Origin: Anaerobacillus sp. CMMVII
GTDB taxonomy: Bacteria; Bacillota; Bacilli; Bacillales; Anaerobacillaceae
Direction of reading: 5' to 3'
Assembly: GCF_025377685.1 (NCBI RefSeq)
Contig: NZ_JACEHK010000010.1
Span: 248,001 to 312,000, forward strand
DNA: 64,000 bases
Under the pieces are notes generated by a model. It saw nothing but the letters and a program-made list of their open reading frames with translations, was not told the DNA's origin and did no database searches. Each line of letters begins with the position of its first letter. Position 1 is the first letter of the stretch. Made by a program: the position numbers and the translations under genes. Positions 9,771 to 49,876 of the stretch are shown piece by piece.

Positions 9771-10306
9771 TGGCTTGGATTAGTACCATCTCAATATGGT
9801 TGATACCACTACTTATTGTCTTAATATTATTATATGGGACGATAAAACGAGTTCCTACATATGAAACATTTGTTGAGGGAGCAAAAGAGGGATTTGGTAT
9901 GGCAGTATCAATTATCCCTTATCTAGTAGGGATGTTAGTTGCAATTTCTGTCTTTCGTGCTTCTGGTGCGATGGAATTTTTCATAGATTTATTGAGACCG
10001 ATTTTACATGCAGTTGGAATACCAACAGAAATTGTACCATTAGCATTTATTCGTCCCATTTCAGGTACAGGAGCATTAGGAATGACCTCGGATTTAATTG
10101 CTACTTATGGTCCTGATTCCTTTATTGGAAGATTAGCTTCAACTATGCAAGGTAGCACTGATACGACTTTTTATGTATTAACGGTATACTTTGGAGCGGT
10201 AGGAATTAAAAAGATGGGTGATGCCCTAAAAGTAGGATTGCTAGCAGACATTGTAGGGATTATCGCCTCTATTGTTGTTGTAACTATTGTTTTTGGTGTA
10301 ATGTAA
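9770..10306 (+). CDS. spmB: Spore maturation protein B
   Basis: A 178-residue membrane protein, paralogous to SpmA through the Gate domain. Typical features are FVEGAKEGFGMAVSIIPYLV and AFIRPISGTGALGMTSDLI. It acts with SpmA in spore dehydration. Its start codon overlaps the spmA stop (TAATG), and a strong terminator follows within 20 bases, ending the operon. Confidence 0.92.
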   Translation: MAWISTISIWLIPLLIVLILLYGTIKRVPTYETFVEGAKEGFGMAVSIIPYLVGMLVAISVFRASGAMEFFIDLLRPILHAVGIPTEIVPLAFIRPISGTGALGMTSDLIATYGPDSFIGRLASTMQGSTDTTFYVLTVYFGAVGIKKMGDALKVGLLADIVGIIASIVVVTIVFGVM

Positions 10307-18831: not shown

Positions 18832-19159
18832 TTCATAATTAGCAATTATTATGTATAATATAAATCAGTAAATCAATAATCTTTAAGGTCACTTTATGTT
18901 AGTAGAGTGTTAAAAGGGAAGCTGGTGTAAGTCCAGCACGGTCCCGCCACTGTAAAACGCTAGAATGTTTTAATATCCACTGTCATCAAATTGATGGGAA
19001 GGAAAAACATTTGCAATGCGTAAGTCAGGAGACCTGCCTTAAAGAAACATGTGATGCCTTCGAGGAAAAGGTCAAGCAGTTATGTACATTGTTGTTTTTA
19101 ATAACTTTGCATATATCTGACTAACCAAAGTTCCCGTTGTTGGGAACTTTTTCTTTTTT
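18832..19159 (+). promoter_or_regulatory. Cobalamin (B12) riboswitch with terminator
   Basis: A possible promoter (TTCATA, 16 bases, TATAAT at 18854-18859) precedes the aptamer at about 18882-19050. Diagnostic B12-element sequences are present: GGGAAGCTGGTGTAAGTCCA, GCACGGTCCCGCCACTGTAA, and AAGTCAGGAGACCTGCC near the 3' end. The expression platform is a classical terminator at 19127-19159, where AAAGTTCCC pairs with GGGAACTTT before a T-rich run. Adenosylcobalamin binding should therefore stop transcription of the downstream DUF4430, ECF and adenosyltransferase genes. Confidence is high because the conserved core is nearly complete. Confidence 0.95.
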
Positions 19160-20122: not shown

Positions 20123-20703
20123 ATGAAATTGTACACAAGAACAGGTGATGAAGGGAAAACGAGTGTTATTGGTGGAAGGGTGGATAAAGATGACATTCGT
20201 GTTGAAGCCTATGGTACGATTGATGAAGTTAACAGCTTTGTTGGTCTTGCGGTAACACAGCTTAATACAGACCTGTTTCCAGATATATTAAAAGAGTTGG
20301 AAAAAATTCAGCATGAGCTTTTTGACTGCGGTGGTGATTTAGCACTTCTTTCGACTAAATATCCTTATAAAGCTTCTTCCGAGATGATTACTTTTTAGAA
20401 GAACGTATCGATGCCTATATCGCTGAAGCGCCACAACTTGAAAAGTTTATTTTACCGGGTGGTTCAAATGCAGCAGCAACAGTTCATATTTGTCGTACTG
20501 TCACTCGTAGAGCCGAGCGTTTAGTCGTTCAATTACAAAAAGTGGCCGATACAAATCAAATAGTATTAAAATACTTAAATCGCTTATCTGACTATTTCTT
20601 TGCTATTGCGAGGGTTATTAACTTTCGCTATGGAGTGAAAGATGTAGAATATGAGCGCAGTGCTTTAGTTTTCCGTGATGAACCCTCAAAGAAGGAACAA
20701 TAG
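20123..20703 (+). pseudogene. PduO-type cob(I)yrinic acid a,c-diamide adenosyltransferase, single-base frameshift
   Basis: The enzyme transfers adenosyl from ATP to cob(I)alamin to make adenosylcobalamin. The first frame has the PduO N-terminal signature MKLYTRTGDEGKTSVIGG and VEAYGTIDEVNSFVGLA. It stops at 20398, and the second frame continues with FILPGGSNAAATVHICRTVT, RRAERLVVQL and YLNRLSDYFFAIARVINFRY. Adding one T to the run ACTTTTTAG (to give ITFLEERID) restores a 193-residue protein of normal length. This is one of ten homopolymer losses in the window and is probably artefactual. GGAGGG precedes the ATG. A terminator follows at 20710. Confidence 0.85.
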
Positions 20704-28936: not shown

Positions 28937-29998
28937 TTGGACTATTTACAAATTATTTTTCTATTAATTTTAAAAAAATTTAATGGAAATAGAAGCGTTT
29001 TTGGTGCCTATCACATTTTAAAAGGGAAAAAAACCGCTCAAACTGTGCAAGATTGTCGCCTTTTTCACATCTCAACATTATTTGGTGTTTACAAACAACT
29101 AGAGAGATCGACCGCCCTAAAAGTAGTAAACCTACTCCTAGAAAAAGAATATTTGATTGATGCTGGTGAACAACGCTATATAGTGACAAAAAAAGGAGAA
29201 GAATTCTTACAAAGCAGATTAACTGAAGCCCCACTCCCAACTTACCTAAATGGTTTCATCTATAAAGATATTACGGATGTTTTTTGGACAAGAATGGTTT
29301 TACTAATTCAGTGTCTATCATTCCTTAAACTCAATCGTTCTGAATTCATACCGGTAAGTAAAGATGCCAGAACGCAAGCTTGGGTTAAAGAGAAACTGCA
29401 GAGTAGTGGCATGTCTCCTTCTCAGTTTGCGGATCGACTTTTTTTAGAGTTAGAAACGATGTTAAAACAGTTTTCTAATCTTGAAGCAACTATCTTTGTT
29501 TTACGACTAAGTGGAGTAAAACGTGTGGGTCTGACAATCGATCAGATTGCTCAGGAACTAAAAATAGAAAGTTTTTATACAAGGTTACTTTATATTGGAG
29601 TCATTCATGGGCTTATATCAAAGGTTTACGACCATCAAGATGAATTCCCGCTTATTTATAGTATTTTAGATCGAATCGAAACAACAAATCTCCTAACTGA
29701 AACGGCACAAAAAACGTATGCCTGTTTAGTAAGGGGGTTAAATATTGAGGAGATAAGTAGATTACGTTCTTTAAAACAAAATACAATTGAGGATCATCTT
29801 GTTGAAATTTGCTTAAACTATGAAGATTTCTCGATCGATTCTTTCGTTTCCAAAGAAATTCAAACAGAGATTTTAGCCGTCATGTCTGAACTTAAAACCA
29901 AAAGATTAAAAGAAATAAAAGACAAGCTTGGGCATACGATTACTTATTTTCAAATTCGTTTAATTTTGGCTAAGAGAGGTTTCTTAAATGAACGTTAA
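28937..29998 (+). CDS. ypbB: Helix-turn-helix domain protein YpbB
   Basis: A 353-residue protein of the YpbB family, which lies upstream of recQ in Bacillaceae and ends in a helicase-associated helix-turn-helix domain (LKTKRLKEIKDKLGHTITYF). The start is TTG at 28937 (MDYLQIIFLLILKKFNGNRS). The stop overlaps recQ by 11 bases, so the two are translated together, suggesting a shared role in DNA metabolism. Its molecular function is not known. Confidence 0.85.
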   Translation: MDYLQIIFLLILKKFNGNRSVFGAYHILKGKKTAQTVQDCRLFHISTLFGVYKQLERSTALKVVNLLLEKEYLIDAGEQRYIVTKKGEEFLQSRLTEAPLPTYLNGFIYKDITDVFWTRMVLLIQCLSFLKLNRSEFIPVSKDARTQAWVKEKLQSSGMSPSQFADRLFLELETMLKQFSNLEATIFVLRLSGVKRVGLTIDQIAQELKIESFYTRLLYIGVIHGLISKVYDHQDEFPLIYSILDRIETTNLLTETAQKTYACLVRGLNIEEISRLRSLKQNTIEDHLVEICLNYEDFSIDSFVSKEIQTEILAVMSELKTKRLKEIKDKLGHTITYFQIRLILAKRGFLNER

Positions 29999-31497
29999 AA
30001 AAGCTTTATACAATTTCTTTAAGTTAACGTCATTCCGTACAGGGCAACAAGAGATAATTCATGATCTTTTAAGAGGTCAAGACGTCTTAGCAATGCTACC
30101 TACTGGTGCAGGGAAGTCATTGTGCTATCAGTTACCAGCTTTTATGCTACCTGGGTTAACTGTCGTAGTATCACCTTTACTTTCATTAATGGAGGATCAA
30201 GTTCAGCAGTTAAAAAGCAAAGGCTTAAAAAAAGTGATTGCTCTTAATAGTTTCTTAAGCTATGAGGAACGGGATTTAGCACTTCGCCAATTACATGAAC
30301 AAAAGCTTATATATGTATCTCCTGAAATTTTACAGTCTAAATTTGTCATGGGTAAATTAAATAAACTAAAGGTCTCTCTGTTTGTTGTTGACGAAGCTCA
30401 TTGTATTTCACAGTGGGGTCATGAATTTCGAACAGATTACCTAAAGTTGAAAGAAGCAAGGCATCAATTGGGGAATCCACCTTGTCTAGCCATTACAGCA
30501 ACGGCTACTAAGGAGGTTCAAAAAGACATAACGGAGAAGCTTTCGTTAACAGATTATCAAACCCATATTTATAGTATGGATCGAGAAAATATTGCAATGG
30601 TTATCCATAGAGATGCGAATACTGTTCAAGAGAAAGTAGAAACACTTGTCACTTTTGTTCAGAAATTTCAAGGTCCGGGGATTATTTATGCTTCAACGAG
30701 AAATGGACGGAAGATTTAGTTAACGTCTTAAAAAGTAAAGGGATACAATGTATAGCTGCTTATCATGGTGGGATGAGTAATGAAGATCGCTTATTAATAC
30801 AACAACAATTTCTTAATGATGAACTCCAATTAATTTGTTGCACAAGTGCTTTTGGCATGGGGGTTAACAAGCAGAATATCCGCTATGTTATCCACTTTCA
30901 TTTTCCATTGCAGCTCGAATCTTATCTACAAGAAATAGGCAGAGCAGGGCGCGATGGAAAAAAAGCATTGCAGTTACTTTGTTTAGTGAGGAAGAATCTG
31001 TCTTACAATCTTCCTTAATTACGAGAGAATTTCCGAGCTTTCAGCAATTGAATGAAATCTCAAAATATTTACGGCTAAAAACAAACCAAGAACGTATAAA
31101 TGAATTAGCGTTAATTAATGAAACTGGAATTACTGAAATCATGTGGAGGTTTATACGTTTTCATTTAGAGGAACAAGGTGTTATAGTTGACCTAAAATAC
31201 TGTCCTGGAAATGATAGATTAAACGAGGCGTTTCAGCATATTAGTGAGAAAATTACAACAAGGATAAAATCAAAGCAAACTAAATTAACTTTATTTCAGG
31301 AATGGCTAAGAGAAAAAGAGTATTGTCGTAGAGAATTGGTTTTAAAGCACTTTGGGGAAAGTATAAGTGAAAAAAATGATCATTGCTGTGATATTTGTGG
31401 AGTAGAACTCGAAGGATATTTTGCTACAGAGAACTCATACAAAGAGTATCGTTTTCATTCATGGCAAACTGAACTAAAGAGTATATTCCATATATAA
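29988..31497 (+). pseudogene. recQ: ATP-dependent DNA helicase RecQ, two single-base frameshifts
   Basis: Three reading frames join into a 503-residue RecQ (B. subtilis recQ is about 496). Motif I is LPTGAGKSLCYQLPA, motif II VDEAHCISQWGHEFR and motif VI QEIGRAGRDG. The zinc-binding cysteines appear as YCRRELVLKHFGE and CCDICGVEL near the C-terminus. The first break is at about 30706, where AGAAATGG should have four A (TRKWTEDLVN); the second is near 30977, where TTACTTTG should have four T (QLLLFSEEE). Both are one-base homopolymer losses, so assembly error is likely. It overlaps ypbB and precedes ypbD as in B. subtilis. Confidence 0.85.
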
Positions 31498-35372: not shown

Positions 35373-35415
35373 AAAAGAGGGAAATAGAATGAACTTTAGA
35401 GGGGAGAAAAAGACA

Positions 35416-36476
35416 ATGACAAAGGTATTAATGAAGGGGAACGAGGTCATTGCCGAAGCAGCAATTCACTCTGGCTGTAAATACTTTTTTGGATATCCGA
35501 TTACACCACAGAGTGAACTTGTTGCGTACATGGCTAGGCGCTTACCAGAAGTAGATGGTTTATTTTTACAAGCAGAAAGTGAAGTTGCTGCAATCAACAT
35601 GGTCTATGGGGCCGCATCAGCTGGAGTTAGAGTGATGACGTCATCATCAAGTCCAGGTTTTAGTTTAAAGCAAGAAGGGATTTCTTTTTAGCTGGCGCAG
35701 AGCTTCCAGCGGTTCTCGTTAATATTGCTAGAGGAGGTCCAGGGTTAGGAAATATCCAACCATCGCAATCAGATTACTTTCAAGCAACGAAAGGTGGTGG
35801 GCATGGAGACTACAATACTCCAGTCCTAGCACCTAGTACCCTTCAAGAAATTGTAGAATTAACTGAAGTGGCTTTTGATTTAGCTGACCAGTATCGTACT
35901 CCTGTCATTTTGATGGGAGATGGTATGCTCGGTCAAATGATGGAGCCTGTAGAGTTTTCTGATCATGAGTTGAAGGAACCAATAAAGAAAGAATGGGCAA
36001 CCACTGGTACGAGGGGAGATGGGCCACCACGGGTAATTACCTCCTTGCAGTTAAATGATATTAACTTAGAGAATCACAATTATACATTACAGAAAAAATA
36101 TGAAGAAATTAAGCAAAACGAGGCACGCTTTGACACATACAGAACCGAAGATGCTGAATATTTCGTAGTTGCCTATGGCACAGTCTCGCGAATTTGTAAA
36201 AATGTTATTGATGCTGCAAGAAAACAAGGGATTAAGGTTGGGATGATCAGACCGATAACTTTGTGGCCATTCCCAGAACAACCATTTGTTGAATATCGCG
36301 AACTGGCAAAATCATTTCTAACAGTAGAAATGAATACCGGGCAGATGGTAGAAGATGTTCGCCTAGCTGTAAACGGGAGAGCTCCTGTTTCATTTTTTGG
36401 TAGAACAGGCGGAGTAATTCCAAGTCAATCAGAAATCTTGGAAGCTATTATCAATTTAGCAGGGGGGGAGCAGTAA
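35416..36476 (+). pseudogene. korA: 2-oxoacid:ferredoxin oxidoreductase alpha subunit, single-base frameshift
   Basis: The first frame starts [20 protein letters not shown] and has [16 protein letters not shown] and [16 protein letters not shown]. It stops at 35691 because the T run in ATTTCTTTTTAGC is one short; with six T it continues as [20 protein letters not shown] and onward to 36476, giving 353 residues. The protein is the pyrimidine-binding domain of the TPP enzyme. ATG 35416 follows GAGGGGAG. The stop overlaps korB. I regard the break as a probable assembly error, since the rest of the operon is intact. Confidence 0.85.
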
Positions 36477-40562: not shown

Positions 40563-41324
40563 GTGGGAGTCATCGTTTTAATTATGGCTATAGGTATTAG
40601 TTTGTTGTTTTATATGTGGCTAGAAGGAAAAAAAGACAAGATAACCTATACAGAGCTTGCATACCCTAGTCTTCCAAAAAACTTCTCTGGAATAAAGCTT
40701 TTTTTTATTTCTGATATACATCAGCGTGAGGTTAGTGAATTAATCTTAGACGAGATTAAAGGAAAGATAGATTTCATCATTATTGGTGGGGACCTGGCTC
40801 AAAAAGGGGTCCCTTTTTCACGAATCTCGAAAAATTTAAAAGCACTGACTGCAATTGCTCCGACATATTTTGTCTGGGGTAATAATGATTATGAGTTACA
40901 TCGTTTAGAATTTGAAAAGTTGTTAAAAGACTCAGGAGTCACACCTTTAGTAAATCAATCAATCGTTATTAGGGATGGAAGCGAATCAATTTACCTAGTT
41001 GGGGTTGACGATTATGGGAATCATTTGGCTAATCTAGATAAAGCTTTAGAAGATTACGATAATGGCTTTCAAATTCTAATAAGTCATAATCCCGATATTA
41101 GAAAAGAAATACGTTGTAATCATCAAATAAAGCTGATTCTTAGTGGTCATACTCATGGTGGACAAATAAGAGTATTTGGTTGGGGAATAGCTGAAAGAGG
41201 TGGGATTAAAAAGTTAGATAAGGACATGTTTCTTGTAATTAGTAACGGTTATGGAACGAATTGGCTACCATTAAGGTTAGGTGCCCCAGCTGAGGTTCAC
41301 GTGATCACATTAAAAAAAGGGTAA
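40563..41324 (+). CDS. ypbG: Metallophosphoesterase YpbG
   Basis: A 253-residue protein with an N-terminal membrane anchor (VIVLIMAIGISLLFYMWLEG) and a calcineurin-like phosphoesterase domain. Motifs are FFISDIHQRE (DxH), IGGDLAQKG (GD), WGNNDYE, LISHNPD and LILSGHTHGGQIRVF (GHTH). The usual GNHD motif reads GNND here, so the catalytic histidine is replaced by asparagine. The start is GTG with GAGGAGAG ahead. YpbG-type enzymes are membrane-associated with unknown substrate. A CarH-type operator begins five bases after the stop. Confidence 0.85.
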   Translation: MGVIVLIMAIGISLLFYMWLEGKKDKITYTELAYPSLPKNFSGIKLFFISDIHQREVSELILDEIKGKIDFIIIGGDLAQKGVPFSRISKNLKALTAIAPTYFVWGNNDYELHRLEFEKLLKDSGVTPLVNQSIVIRDGSESIYLVGVDDYGNHLANLDKALEDYDNGFQILISHNPDIRKEIRCNHQIKLILSGHTHGGQIRVFGWGIAERGGIKKLDKDMFLVISNGYGTNWLPLRLGAPAEVHVITLKKG

Positions 41325-41328
41325 CTTG

Positions 41329-41379
41329 TTTCACAAAGGTTATACAAATTTTACACAAGAACCCTTTTATGTATATACT
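41329..41379 (+). promoter_or_regulatory. Promoter with three 11-bp direct repeats, probable CarH-type operator
   Basis: Three adjacent 11-base units occur in register: TTTCACAAAGG (41329-41339), TTATACAAATT (41340-41350) and TTACACAAGAA (41351-41361), consensus TTWYACAA. CarH of Thermus binds 11-bp direct repeats containing TnTACA. The -35 TTTACA (41350-41355) lies inside the array and TATACT (41374-41379) follows after 18 bases, so binding would block RNA polymerase. The regulated gene is the CarH-like gene itself, 45 bases downstream. Confidence 0.7.
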
Positions 41380-41423
41380 ATTTAAAGCTAGTCTTGTTTC
41401 AATAGTGTTTGGGGGCTAAGGTT

Positions 41424-42335
41424 ATGGCAGATGATAAAGCAAAATATAATATAAAAGCAATTTCAAATATGTTAGGAATTCAACCAGGAACTTTGCGTGC
41501 TTGGGAACGAAGATATAATATTATTGAACCAATTCGCAATGAATCTGGACATCGATTATACTCTGACGAACATTTGGCAATTTTACGTTGGTTACTCGAT
41601 AAAGTAAATAAAGGGTTTACGATTGGACAAGCTGTAGGACTCTTAGAAAAAGGTAGTGTGAATTTAGAGTCGCAAGTTGAGACACAGCAAACAAATCGAT
41701 TACAAACGTATGCTGCTGAATTACGTGGTAGCTTATTAGGGTTCCAAGAATTAAGAGCAAATGCCATTCTAGATGAGGCATTTAGTATGTTTTCGGTGGA
41801 GAAAGTTCTTCTTGAAATAATTGCTCCTGTTCTTATTGAGATTGGCTCATTATGGGAAACTGATAATATTACGGTAGCTCATGAACATTATGCATCCCAA
41901 TATTTAAGAACGAGAATTGGCATGATTTTTAACAGTCTCCAAGTTGATCCGTTGTTACCTAAAGCAATCGCTGTATGTGGACCAAACGAACGGCATGAGC
42001 TTGGTTTATTAATGTTTACCTTATATTTGCGAAAAAAGGGTTTCGAAGTTATTTACTTAGGGACAGGTGTCCCTAGCAAAGATTTAGAACAAGTAGTGAA
42101 TGAGGTAAAGGCAAAGTATCTTTTCTTATCTTGTACCATCGCAGAAAATTTAACGGAAACTATAGGGGTAATTCGTGATCTACAGAAACTAGAACCAAAT
42201 TTAAATATTGGTTTAGGTGGGCATGCGGTTAAGATGTTACCTAAACGTAAACAAATAGAATTTAGCGAAAATCTTGTTGGACAAACAATTGATGAGTGGG
42301 ATAATTGGTTAAAAAATAGATTCGGAAAAATGTAA
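41424..42335 (+). CDS. CarH-like MerR regulator with B12-binding photosensory domain
   Basis: A 303-residue protein. Residues 8-75 are a MerR-type winged helix (IKAISNMLGIQPGTLRAWER). Residues 90-165 form the four-helix domain that caps cobalamin and include Trp144, Glu154 and His155 in the pattern Wx9EH (LWETDNITVAHEHYAS), the signature of adenosylcobalamin photoreceptors. Residues 180-300 are the Rossmann-like B12 domain with ExHxxG in PNERHELG (His191 as lower ligand). In known CarH the dark adenosylcobalamin form is a tetramer bound to DNA, and light releases it. ATG 41424 is used. Autoregulation is inferred from the repeats upstream. Confidence 0.88.
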   Translation: MADDKAKYNIKAISNMLGIQPGTLRAWERRYNIIEPIRNESGHRLYSDEHLAILRWLLDKVNKGFTIGQAVGLLEKGSVNLESQVETQQTNRLQTYAAELRGSLLGFQELRANAILDEAFSMFSVEKVLLEIIAPVLIEIGSLWETDNITVAHEHYASQYLRTRIGMIFNSLQVDPLLPKAIAVCGPNERHELGLLMFTLYLRKKGFEVIYLGTGVPSKDLEQVVNEVKAKYLFLSCTIAENLTETIGVIRDLQKLEPNLNIGLGGHAVKMLPKRKQIEFSENLVGQTIDEWDNWLKNRFGKM

Positions 42336-42539: not shown

Positions 42540-43133
42540 ATGCGCTTAGAAAGGCTTAATTATGATAAAATAAAAATCTTTCTTACCTTTGATGATCTCA
42601 GTGAACGAGGCATTACTAAAGAAGAAATGTGGCAAGATATCCCAAAGGTTCATCAGCTTTTCAGGGATATGATGCTTGAAGCTAGTGATGAACTAGGGTT
42701 TGAAGCTGATGGACCGATTGCTATAGAAGTGTTTTCACTACCAGCTCAAGGGATGGTTGTGATCGTCACAAAATCCAAAAAAGATGATGATATAGACGAA
42801 GAATTCGATGATGGGTTTATTGAAATGCAAGTAACGTTAGATGAAAGTGAAGAAATTATTTATGAATTTCAAAGTATCGAGGATGTTATTTCTTTATCGC
42901 CAAGATTAATAGGTTTTGGTGTACCTACAGGAAGCTTACTACATTTTGAAAACCACTATTTCTTAACATTTGAAGAAAAAGACTTATTTGGAGTCGATAT
43001 GGATGCGTTTATTGCCCTTCTATCCGAATACGGCAATCCATCGACGATTACCATTTATCGATTAGTTGAATACGCTAAAGAGATTATTGAATGTAACGCG
43101 ATTGAAAAAATATATCAAACTTTTTATAAATAA
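42540..43133 (+). CDS. mecB: Adaptor protein MecA family (YpbH/MecB)
   Basis: A 197-residue adaptor that delivers substrates to the ClpC protease. The N-terminal domain (MRLERLNYDKIKIFLTFDDL) recognises substrates, an acidic linker follows (KKDDDIDEEFDDGFIE), and the C-terminal domain (FLTFEEKDLFGVDMDAFIAL, EYGNPSTITIYRLVEY) binds ClpC. Location between ypbG and glutamate dehydrogenase matches YpbH (MecB) rather than MecA of B. subtilis. AAGGAGG lies just ahead of the ATG. Confidence 0.9.
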   Translation: MRLERLNYDKIKIFLTFDDLSERGITKEEMWQDIPKVHQLFRDMMLEASDELGFEADGPIAIEVFSLPAQGMVVIVTKSKKDDDIDEEFDDGFIEMQVTLDESEEIIYEFQSIEDVISLSPRLIGFGVPTGSLLHFENHYFLTFEEKDLFGVDMDAFIALLSEYGNPSTITIYRLVEYAKEIIECNAIEKIYQTFYK

Positions 43134-43136
43134 ATG

Positions 43137-43160
43137 AAAAACCTCAACTAGAGGTTTTTT
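43137..43160 (+). terminator. Terminator after mecB
   Basis: AAAAACCTC pairs with GAGGTTTTTT around AACTA. Confidence 0.85.
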
Positions 43161-47267: not shown

Positions 47268-47440
47268 TGAACTACCCGCCACTTAATTTTCTAACGAAAA
47301 TTTGAAGTGGGGGCTTCCTAAGTAAAGACACCTAATGGTATCTAATTGATTAGGCAATCCCTGTCGTCCCGACAGTTAATCGTAATGCTTCATTACGAAG
47401 ATTCATTCCTGCGTTTACATCTCTTTGGTGATAGCTCTTA
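47268..47440 (-). ncRNA. Predicted omega RNA (reRNA) of the tnpB element
   Basis: TnpB guides are encoded by the 3' end of tnpB and the right end of the element, and finish at the element edge. Here the GC-rich end hairpin at about 47270-47320 would be the scaffold, and the guide would be the 16-20 bases just outside, about 47247-47266. This is inferred from the family; the boundaries are not seen directly. Confidence 0.4.
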
Positions 47441-48522
47441 CATGATGGACATTCCCATTCACGTAACGCCAGATGTTTCACGTCTTTATTCTTGTAGCCA
47501 CAACACGAACACAGCTGACTACTTGGGAAGTTTTTAGCGACTACTACTACTTGTTTGCCATACCACCTTGCTTTGTATTCAAGCATTTGACGAAATTGAT
47601 GCCATGAAGCTTCACTAATGGCCTTGGAAAGGTTTTTATTCTTTGCCATGTTTTGAACCGAAAGATCTTCCATCCCTATGATGTCGTGGTTTTTGACAAG
47701 AATGGTTGAAAGTTTGTGTAGGAAGTCTGTACGAGCGTTCGTAATCTTTTCATGAATCAGAGCGACCTTTTTTCGTTGTTTGTACCAGTTCGATGAACCG
47801 ATGCTTCGTCTGGAAAGGATTTGTTGAGCCTTTACTAATTTTTGTTCAAGCGAATGAAACCACCTCGGATTTTGATAGATAGTACCATCCGAAAGAGTCG
47901 CAAAAGCTTTAAGATCGACATCGATACCGACAGATGAATAGGTTTCAGGCAGCTTTTCGACCTTTGTTTCTACTAAAATACTAATGAAGTATTTACCACT
48001 TGGATTGCGCCGAATCGTCGCATTTATAATTCGCCCGTTCACTTCACGACTTTTCGCAAAACGAACGAGTCCTAGTTTTGGTAACTTGATGCAACGATCC
48101 AAAACCATGATGTTCCCATTGGTTTGTTTTGTTGTGTATGTCTGAACCTTGTTCTTCTTTGACTTAAACCGAGGCGCTTTGGCTTGTTTTTTGTAGTAGC
48201 GAGTATACGCATTATTTAAGTTTTCTACGGATTTTTGGAGAGAAATACTATCAACTTCTTTTAGAAATGGGTACTGTTTCTTTAACAAACGAACCATTTT
48301 TACCGAGTCGTATTTTTAAAAGAATTCACCTTTCCAAGCATTTGTAGGAAGCTGCCCGGATTGCTTCATTTCTTCCACGATGTACCAATAGGCATCTTTC
48401 TGTTTTTGCTTGGCAAGGAAGAAGTTAAACACGAAACGCGCACTTCCAATGGTTTTATTGATAAGCTCTAGTTGTGACTTTGTTGGGTAGATACGAAATT
48501 TATAGGCTTTCTTAACAACCAT
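47350..48522 (-). pseudogene. tnpB: RNA-guided endonuclease TnpB (IS1341 family), in-frame stop
   Basis: A 390-codon tnpB. It starts MVVKKAYKFRIYPTKSQLEL at 48522. RuvC residues lie in [16 protein letters not shown] (Asp), [13 protein letters not shown] (Glu) and [12 protein letters not shown] (Asp); the zinc finger is [13 protein letters not shown]...WECPSC. Codon 69 (48318-48316) is TAA, in the same frame, where neighbours suggest a lysine (GEFF[12 protein letters not shown]). So unlike the other broken genes this is a nonsense change, or a T-run gain plus an A-run loss. The C-terminal 316 codons can be reopened from ATG 48297 but would lack the N-terminal wedge. Confidence 0.85.
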
Positions 48523-48755
48523 ATTTTTCACCTCACTCTCTAACCATATTATACCACAAAATAAGATCGTATGTTCTGTTTTTGAAAAAAATAGCCATTC
48601 ATCCCCCACATACTCGTAAACTCCTTGAAGTTGGGGGTCTTCTGGCCAAAAATGATAAATTCGGGAGAACTTTGTTATTTTTTTACTTCTCATCTGAAAA
48701 CAAAACATGTTACGATTGGGGAATAGAAAGAAAAGAAGGAAGGTAGCTAAAGATA

Positions 48756-49716: not shown

Positions 49717-49876
49717 TTCTTATCGTGAGAGATGGAGGGACGTGGCCCTATGAAATCTCAGCAACCAGCCTAAAAGGTCAGGTGCTAAATCCATCAAGTG
49801 GTTTTCAAGCTTGGAAGATAAGAAGGAGCCTACTGTATTCAGCAACTTCTTCTTAATTTTAGGAAGAAGTTTTTTT
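49717..49876 (+). promoter_or_regulatory. SAM-I (S-box) riboswitch with terminator
   Basis: The P1 arms TTCTTATC (49717-49724) and GATAAGAA (49816-49823) enclose the S-box core: GAGAGATGGAGGGACGTGGC, CTATGAAATCTCAGCAACC, and AAAAGGTCAGGTGCTAAATC. The downstream terminator at 49845-49876 is AACTTCTTC with GAAGAAGTT and eight T. SAM binding should favour termination, lowering expression of metI, metC and probably yitJ and metH. The 49877-50049 gap holds a GAGAACAGCC piece like a family-A end. Confidence 0.96.

Follow-up and report, generated by a model that had tools for sequence, protein, structure and literature searches.

The 64,000-nucleotide stretch of Anaerobacillus sp. CMMVII DNA analysed here (contig NZ_JACEHK010000010.1 of assembly GCF_025377685.1, positions 248,001 to 312,000; hereafter the window) carries on its plus strand a carH-type gene (41424..42335), flanked on the same strand by an upstream gene for a Metallophos phosphoesterase (40563..41324, Pfam match), which we take to be ypbG, and by a downstream gene for a MecA-family 'genetic competence negative regulator' (42540..43133, profile matches), presumably ypbH. 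We judged the 303-aa reading frame of carH to be real, with the ATG at 41424 as the best start, the listed open reading frame beginning at the TTG at 41409. Three Pfam families are matched above cut-off, namely MerR_1 (aa 8-75), B12-binding_2 for the cap (aa 98-167) and B12-binding (aa 180-276), and this succession of a MerR-type HTH, a cap and a cobalamin-binding Rossmann domain is the one found in CarH photoreceptor repressors. The cap contains the Wx9EH motif (aa 144-155, WETDNITVAHEH), given in PMC8156234 as a signature of CarH, and the Rossmann part contains ExHxxG in the form ERHELG (aa 189-194), with SCT and GG further on at the spacing expected from ExHx2Gx41SxV/Tx22-27GG. Among solved proteins, 3whp ('Probable transcriptional regulator') and 5c8d, a CarH, rank highest, both with an E value of 2e-30 over aa 7-286; the NCBIfam CarH equivalog NF052513 scored 150.3 bits, which is under its 400-bit cut-off. 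Collectively, the domains and motifs support the assignment of the window protein as a CarH-type regulator and bear out the original prediction of a CarH-like protein at this site. The gene is a further CarH, i.e., a regulator of a known photoreceptor kind, to which we here add a likely target.

Between the phosphoesterase gene, which ends four bases away, and carH, a pattern scan revealed three TnnACA units on the plus strand that together form a putative operator (41329-41358): TTTCACAA (41329..41336, core TTCACA), TTATACAA (41340..41347, core TATACA) and TTACACAA (41351..41358, core TACACA), with a pitch of exactly 11 bp and 65 bp from the end of the array to the carH ATG. The original prediction had spoken of three exact repeats; the pitch and the match to the degenerate consensus are indeed exact, yet the units differ from one another. 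A consensus scan also placed a promoter-like element, TTTACA-18-TATACT (41350..41379, plus strand, 10/12), over the array, although such matches are frequent (12 in 2.1 kb vs 8.3 in shuffles). As predicted, the array overlaps the -35 element of this candidate promoter, which falls inside the third 11-bp unit (41348-41358). The published CarH unit is nnnnTnnACAn (PMC9304148), and the arrangement in front of carH, judged from its sequence, has the corresponding operator form of tandem 11-bp units over a promoter. Autorepression would be the natural reading of an array lying over the gene's own putative promoter. The array exceeds what chance would give. Two-unit matches with at most one mismatch occur twice in the window, both with 0 mismatches, vs an average of 0.13 over 100 shuffles, and of the 320 window tiles of 200 bp, the one with the carH array alone holds three exact TnnACA units spaced by 11 bp. 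The genome-wide scan suggested with the original prediction returned the carH array as the one exact site for the three-unit consensus in the 4.87-Mb genome; allowing 3 mismatches added three matches vs 4 in the reversed control, i.e., no numerical excess, and one of these three looser matches sits before a carotenoid operon.

The genome holds a single squalene/phytoene synthase family gene (G000:C9), and in L046, the stretch around it, this gene lies on the minus strand with two crtI_fam genes; we labelled the three crtN, crtN2 and crtM. This operon and carH are on separate contigs. Five 11-bp units are found at L046 13238-13291, between 28 and 81 bp ahead of the crtN-like start, with the cores TACACA, TATACA, TACACA, AATACA and TATACA, four of the five being full TnnACA; no sigma-70-like promoter was found near this array on the crtN strand. 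A scan of the same genome for three exact TNYACA units gave three sites, namely carH, the crtN operon and one near PAS/CheW-like genes. With at most one mismatch allowed, nine matches were obtained vs five in the reversed control, and five of the nine correspond to carH, to three overlapping crtN matches and to C6:236942 near the PAS/CheW-like genes. Since a five-unit array stands at the start of a carotenoid operon in the same genome, carotenogenesis is a likely CarH target in this organism, and the best reading of these sequences would be a regulon composed of carH and the unlinked carotenoid operon. This supersedes the earlier statement that the other targets were open. Among the seven same-genus genomes, G002 is the only other one with crtN, and it has arrays both in front of crtN and in front of a second operon that starts with a Caroten_synth (PF04240) gene; a squalene/phytoene synthase family gene is absent from the remaining five of the seven, two of which are 62% and 80% complete.

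Other candidates from these scans were discarded. The four remaining matches, whose neighbours resemble spoVG, hemA, aminopeptidase and cytochrome c genes on visual inspection, do not exceed the control; two-unit matches with at most one mismatch (10 vs 19 in the control) are useless as a genome-wide target list; and a photolyase target was dropped, a FAD_binding_7 match being absent from the genome. Separately, TnnACA arrays were noticed in three genomes close to genes of PAS/CheW-like and chemoreceptor-like type (L335 ~2943, L330 ~1798 and L331 ~1972), each in a single species, and these may be due to chance. The window also contains a SAM riboswitch (49717-49824, RF00162), and pairs of transposase-like ORFs resembling, by eye, TnpB-type proteins occur both in the window (47350-48708) and beside the carotenoid operon (L046 7514-8637).

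Genes for B12 supply are present in the window itself: a cobalamin riboswitch (18869..19055, plus strand; Rfam RF00174, 125.6 bits) stands ahead of a DUF4430 gene, the S component of an ECF transporter and a region encoding cobalamin adenosyltransferase (Cob_adeno_trans, 20123..20703, plus strand), the halves of which are matched in two different frames in this assembly. We regard this cluster as context for the supply of AdoCbl and not as part of the switch. Further genes look split between frames, namely a recQ-like gene (29988-31497) and that of a pyruvate/2-oxoacid oxidoreductase subunit (35389-36476), and the start of crtM (L046 ~10190-10260) is out of frame in the assembly. So many frame breaks may point to assembly indels, or else to real decay.

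The arrays recur at crtN across the order. Among 199 genomes, a CarH match (E ≤ 1e-20) was found in 137 and a crtN match (E ≤ 1e-100) in 90, and arrays were scored in 200-bp regions preceding 88 crtN genes, G100 and G127 being omitted because the match begins inside the gene. Alkalihalophilus pseudofirmus OF4 is a named species with both carH and crtN. When three slots at 11-bp pitch were considered, at least two exact units were present in 77/88 regions and three in 35/88, vs two units in 50/1320 and three in 0/1320 shuffles; genomic control tiles from 19 other loci had two units in 16/1141 cases and three in none. With four slots, at least three exact TnnACA units were found in 38/88 regions at pitch 11, compared with 0-1/88 at each of the nine other pitches from 7 to 16, and the corresponding shuffles had two units in 93/1760 and three in 1/1760. 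Most crtN arrays (69/77) lie on the strand opposite to crtN, the other 8/77 on the same strand, and the commonest unit, T-T-A-T-ACA-A, agrees with the published nnnnTnnACAn, the T and the ACA being fixed by the way in which units were selected.

The carH array is less constant than the crtN array across the order. The original prediction would have been contradicted by an absence of repeats upstream of carH in close relatives; such an absence was not observed, and at pitch 11 at least two exact units are present in 73/132 upstream regions and three in 11/132, vs two units in 39/1980 and three in 0/1980 shuffles; the other 59/132 have fewer than two. Two-unit matches at pitch 9 are as common at carH (70/132) as matches of two or more units at pitch 11 because TTTACACA contains two overlapping TnnACA cores, so that here only three-unit matches separate the two pitches (11 at pitch 11 vs 0 at pitch 9).

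The 132 upstream regions come from 129 tabulated genomes and three second copies of carH. Ten of the 137 genomes with a CarH match were left out (in one the gene is in two pieces, the others have distant relatives), and G003 and G005, from outside the 199, were added. CarH was scored as motif-intact in a strict sense, i.e., with the W, E and H of the cap and the E, H and G of the Rossmann motif all kept. Hence, G176, G093 and G151, in which Asp replaces the first Glu of ExHxxG, count as altered; PMC9304148 gives the motif as D/ExHx2G/P, thus allowing Asp. Both B12 motifs are kept in 109/129 genomes, 76 with and 33 without crtN (E ≤ 1e-100), and altered in 20/129, 7 with and 13 without crtN. 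An array of at least two units precedes crtN in 72/76 genomes with a motif-intact CarH (the other 4/76 having none), in 3/7 with an altered one and in 2/5 outside the table, i.e., in 72/76 with vs 5/12 without a motif-intact CarH, counts that ignore kinship. G072, whose only CarH relative has 28% identity, also has a crtN array.

These counts bear on the idea that a different regulator uses the 11-bp arrays, or that they reflect a peculiarity of AT-rich crtN promoters, with CarH acting elsewhere. TTCACA-type arrays of the same pitch do occur in three genomes next to a spoVG-like gene (L322 ~2059, L332 ~2010 and L060 1501-1528), the spoVG-side site of our genome being found again in G002 and G006, and these arrays probably belong to another regulator, unrelated to CarH; moreover, a crtN array is present in G198, in which carH has no match. 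However, the unit fits the published nnnnTnnACAn (PMC9304148) and recurs in front of carH as well as crtN; three-unit arrays are almost wholly absent from shuffles, genomic tiles and other pitches; and the crtN array is missing in all three crtN genomes with a destroyed B12 site (G214, G073 and G165) and, of the four crtN genomes that were scored and have no carH match, in three. We hold this idea to be very improbable and favour CarH as the protein acting at these arrays.

Since 33 of the 109 genomes with a motif-intact CarH are without crtN, carotenoid control cannot account for every relative. Relatives devoid of crt genes include G004 and G006, the genomes of which are single contigs. CarH might also, or in carotenoid-less relatives mainly, control the MecA-family gene by read-through from the putatively light-regulated carH promoter, and the retention of an intact CarH in these 33 genomes would suit this proposal. 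In a neighbourhood set of 26 distinct genomes (seven of the same genus and 19 from the named collection), carH has the MecA-family gene behind it in 25/26 and the phosphoesterase gene in front of it in 18/26, the contig ending there in one; in the window, we found no terminator-like site between carH and the MecA-family gene, and one after the latter (43136-43160). On the other hand, shared gene order may be plain inheritance, and the 204-bp gap between the two genes, inside which there are weak promoter matches and no three-unit array, could contain a promoter of its own. Such read-through appears unlikely to us.

Relatives that have lost their B12 motifs were also observed: full-length proteins lacking either the Trp of the cap or the His that ligates cobalt occur in L013, L031, L032 and L033, and further such cases in G079, G085, G119, G146, G180, G196 and others. 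Twelve of the 15 tabulated cases of severe motif loss are in genomes without crtN; possibly these proteins are B12-independent regulators, like CarA, or products of decaying genes. Fisher tests made without a tree related the presence or absence of crtN to the carH array (p 0.002), to CarH integrity (0.005) and to severe B12-site loss (0.0003). On a quick CarH tree, the same comparisons gave 1.6 vs 1.8, 3.1 vs 0.2 and 3.2 vs 0.1 independent pairs, respectively, none of them significant, and motif integrity against the crtN array gave only 2 pairs, likewise not significant. We set these trait associations aside because there are too few independent events on the tree.

We consider it highly probable that the window protein is an AdoCbl-dependent repressor of the CarH type acting on itself and on crtN, and we are less sure that light is its main signal. 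In the dark and with AdoCbl bound, the protein would most likely form a tetramer, by analogy with the CarH proteins of Thermus and Bacillus megaterium. The dark oligomer is expected to occupy the tandem 11-bp TnnACA units at the carH promoter (41329-41358), covering the -35 element, and likewise the five units at the start region of crtN in the unlinked crtN-crtN2-crtM-like operon. On illumination, cleavage of the Co-C bond would release the protein from both arrays, and this release may lead to light-induced carotenoid formation together with more repressor, i.e., a negative feedback. The cobalamin riboswitch and the adenosyltransferase family in the window would fit with a supply of AdoCbl. 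The proposed scheme provides a likely target for a photoreceptor gene that had looked like an orphan, and it predicts carotenoid in the light or without B12, and little of it in the dark with B12.

How light would release this protein is a question of its own. In Thermus CarH, His132, the residue after the cap Trp, becomes the upper cobalt ligand in the light. The H132A protein is reported to stay mostly tetrameric after illumination, and formation of the final bis-His state is reported to depend on oxygen (PMC10442372); the role of His132 is disputed because an earlier report, cited in the same paper, saw H132A disassemble in the light. In the alignment, the residue of the window protein that matches His132 is Glu145. 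This position is Glu in 101/109 motif-intact relatives and His in 0/109, and in all 115 Wx9EH matches the residue directly after the cap Trp is other than His. Instead, 99/109 motif-intact relatives have a His just before EH (His153 in the window protein), where Thermus CarH has Glu. The order also contains a second CarH group, with 33-37% identity to the window protein and adjoining crtN in G219 and G178, and the 12 members of it that we inspected have neither His, which disfavours His153 as a general substitute. That some homologues are without the Trp-His pair was already implied by PMC9304148, according to which many, not all, possess it; what is new here is that the pair is absent throughout a large set of relatives.

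These residues raise the question whether the protein senses the level of AdoCbl rather than light, so that plentiful AdoCbl would repress carH and crtN, scarcity would release them and light would play a minor part; a simple AdoCbl-level sensor was also a possibility raised in the original prediction. The predominance of Glu145, the missing His after Trp, the tetrameric H132A protein (PMC10442372) and the cobalamin riboswitch in the same window would all agree with such a role. Against it stand the light disassembly of H132A cited in the same source and the statement in PMC9304148 that the His is common, not universal, among CarH homologues. Moreover, the likely target is a carotenoid operon, and such operons are usually triggered by light, which supersedes the notion of a simple sensor of AdoCbl. 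AdoCbl is also photolabile whatever its ligand. Hence, pure AdoCbl sensing seems to us quite unlikely, and we retain light release from both arrays as the preferred reading. As a tentative proposal, which we put forward as possible and by no means as probable, this large set of CarH proteins of the order, encoded mostly beside the MecA-family gene and acting in trans on an unlinked crtN, may switch without His132, with His153 serving as the upper ligand or with no bis-His state at all; if so, another light state must exist at least in the second group, which has neither His. Anaerobacillus is a genus of anaerobes, and if the proposal is true, light release in it could be independent of oxygen, unlike that of Thermus CarH. 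The 109 natural CarH variants without the His that underlies the current Thermus model of light release offer a direct test of that model, and the CarH proteins of crtN-less genomes, in several of which the B12 site is lost, form a natural series for the decay or reuse of a light sensor.

Among known systems, Thermus thermophilus CarH (PDB 5C8D, 5C8E and 5C8F) has the same domain order, the Wx9EH cap and the lower-ligand ExHxxG motif as the window protein, at about 32% identity. The two differ in that Thermus CarH has His after the cap Trp, whereas in the window protein Glu takes this place and a His precedes EH; in addition, the likely carotenoid target of the window protein is on another contig than its own gene. 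CarHBm (CarH/LitR) of Bacillus megaterium is likewise a CarH of a Gram-positive Bacillus, a likeness drawn from published descriptions. It controls an spx gene and, reportedly, according to work on LitR, carotenoid formation. Its operators consist of four 11-bp units, or of three and a pseudo-repeat, over the -35 or the -10 element (PMC8156234; PMC9304148). CarA of Myxococcus xanthus, a B12-independent paralogue, is also a MerR-B12-domain repressor of a carotenoid promoter (PMC9304148). It is described in the same source as being without the cap Trp, whereas the window protein keeps both B12 motifs; some relatives of the window protein have, like CarA, lost them.
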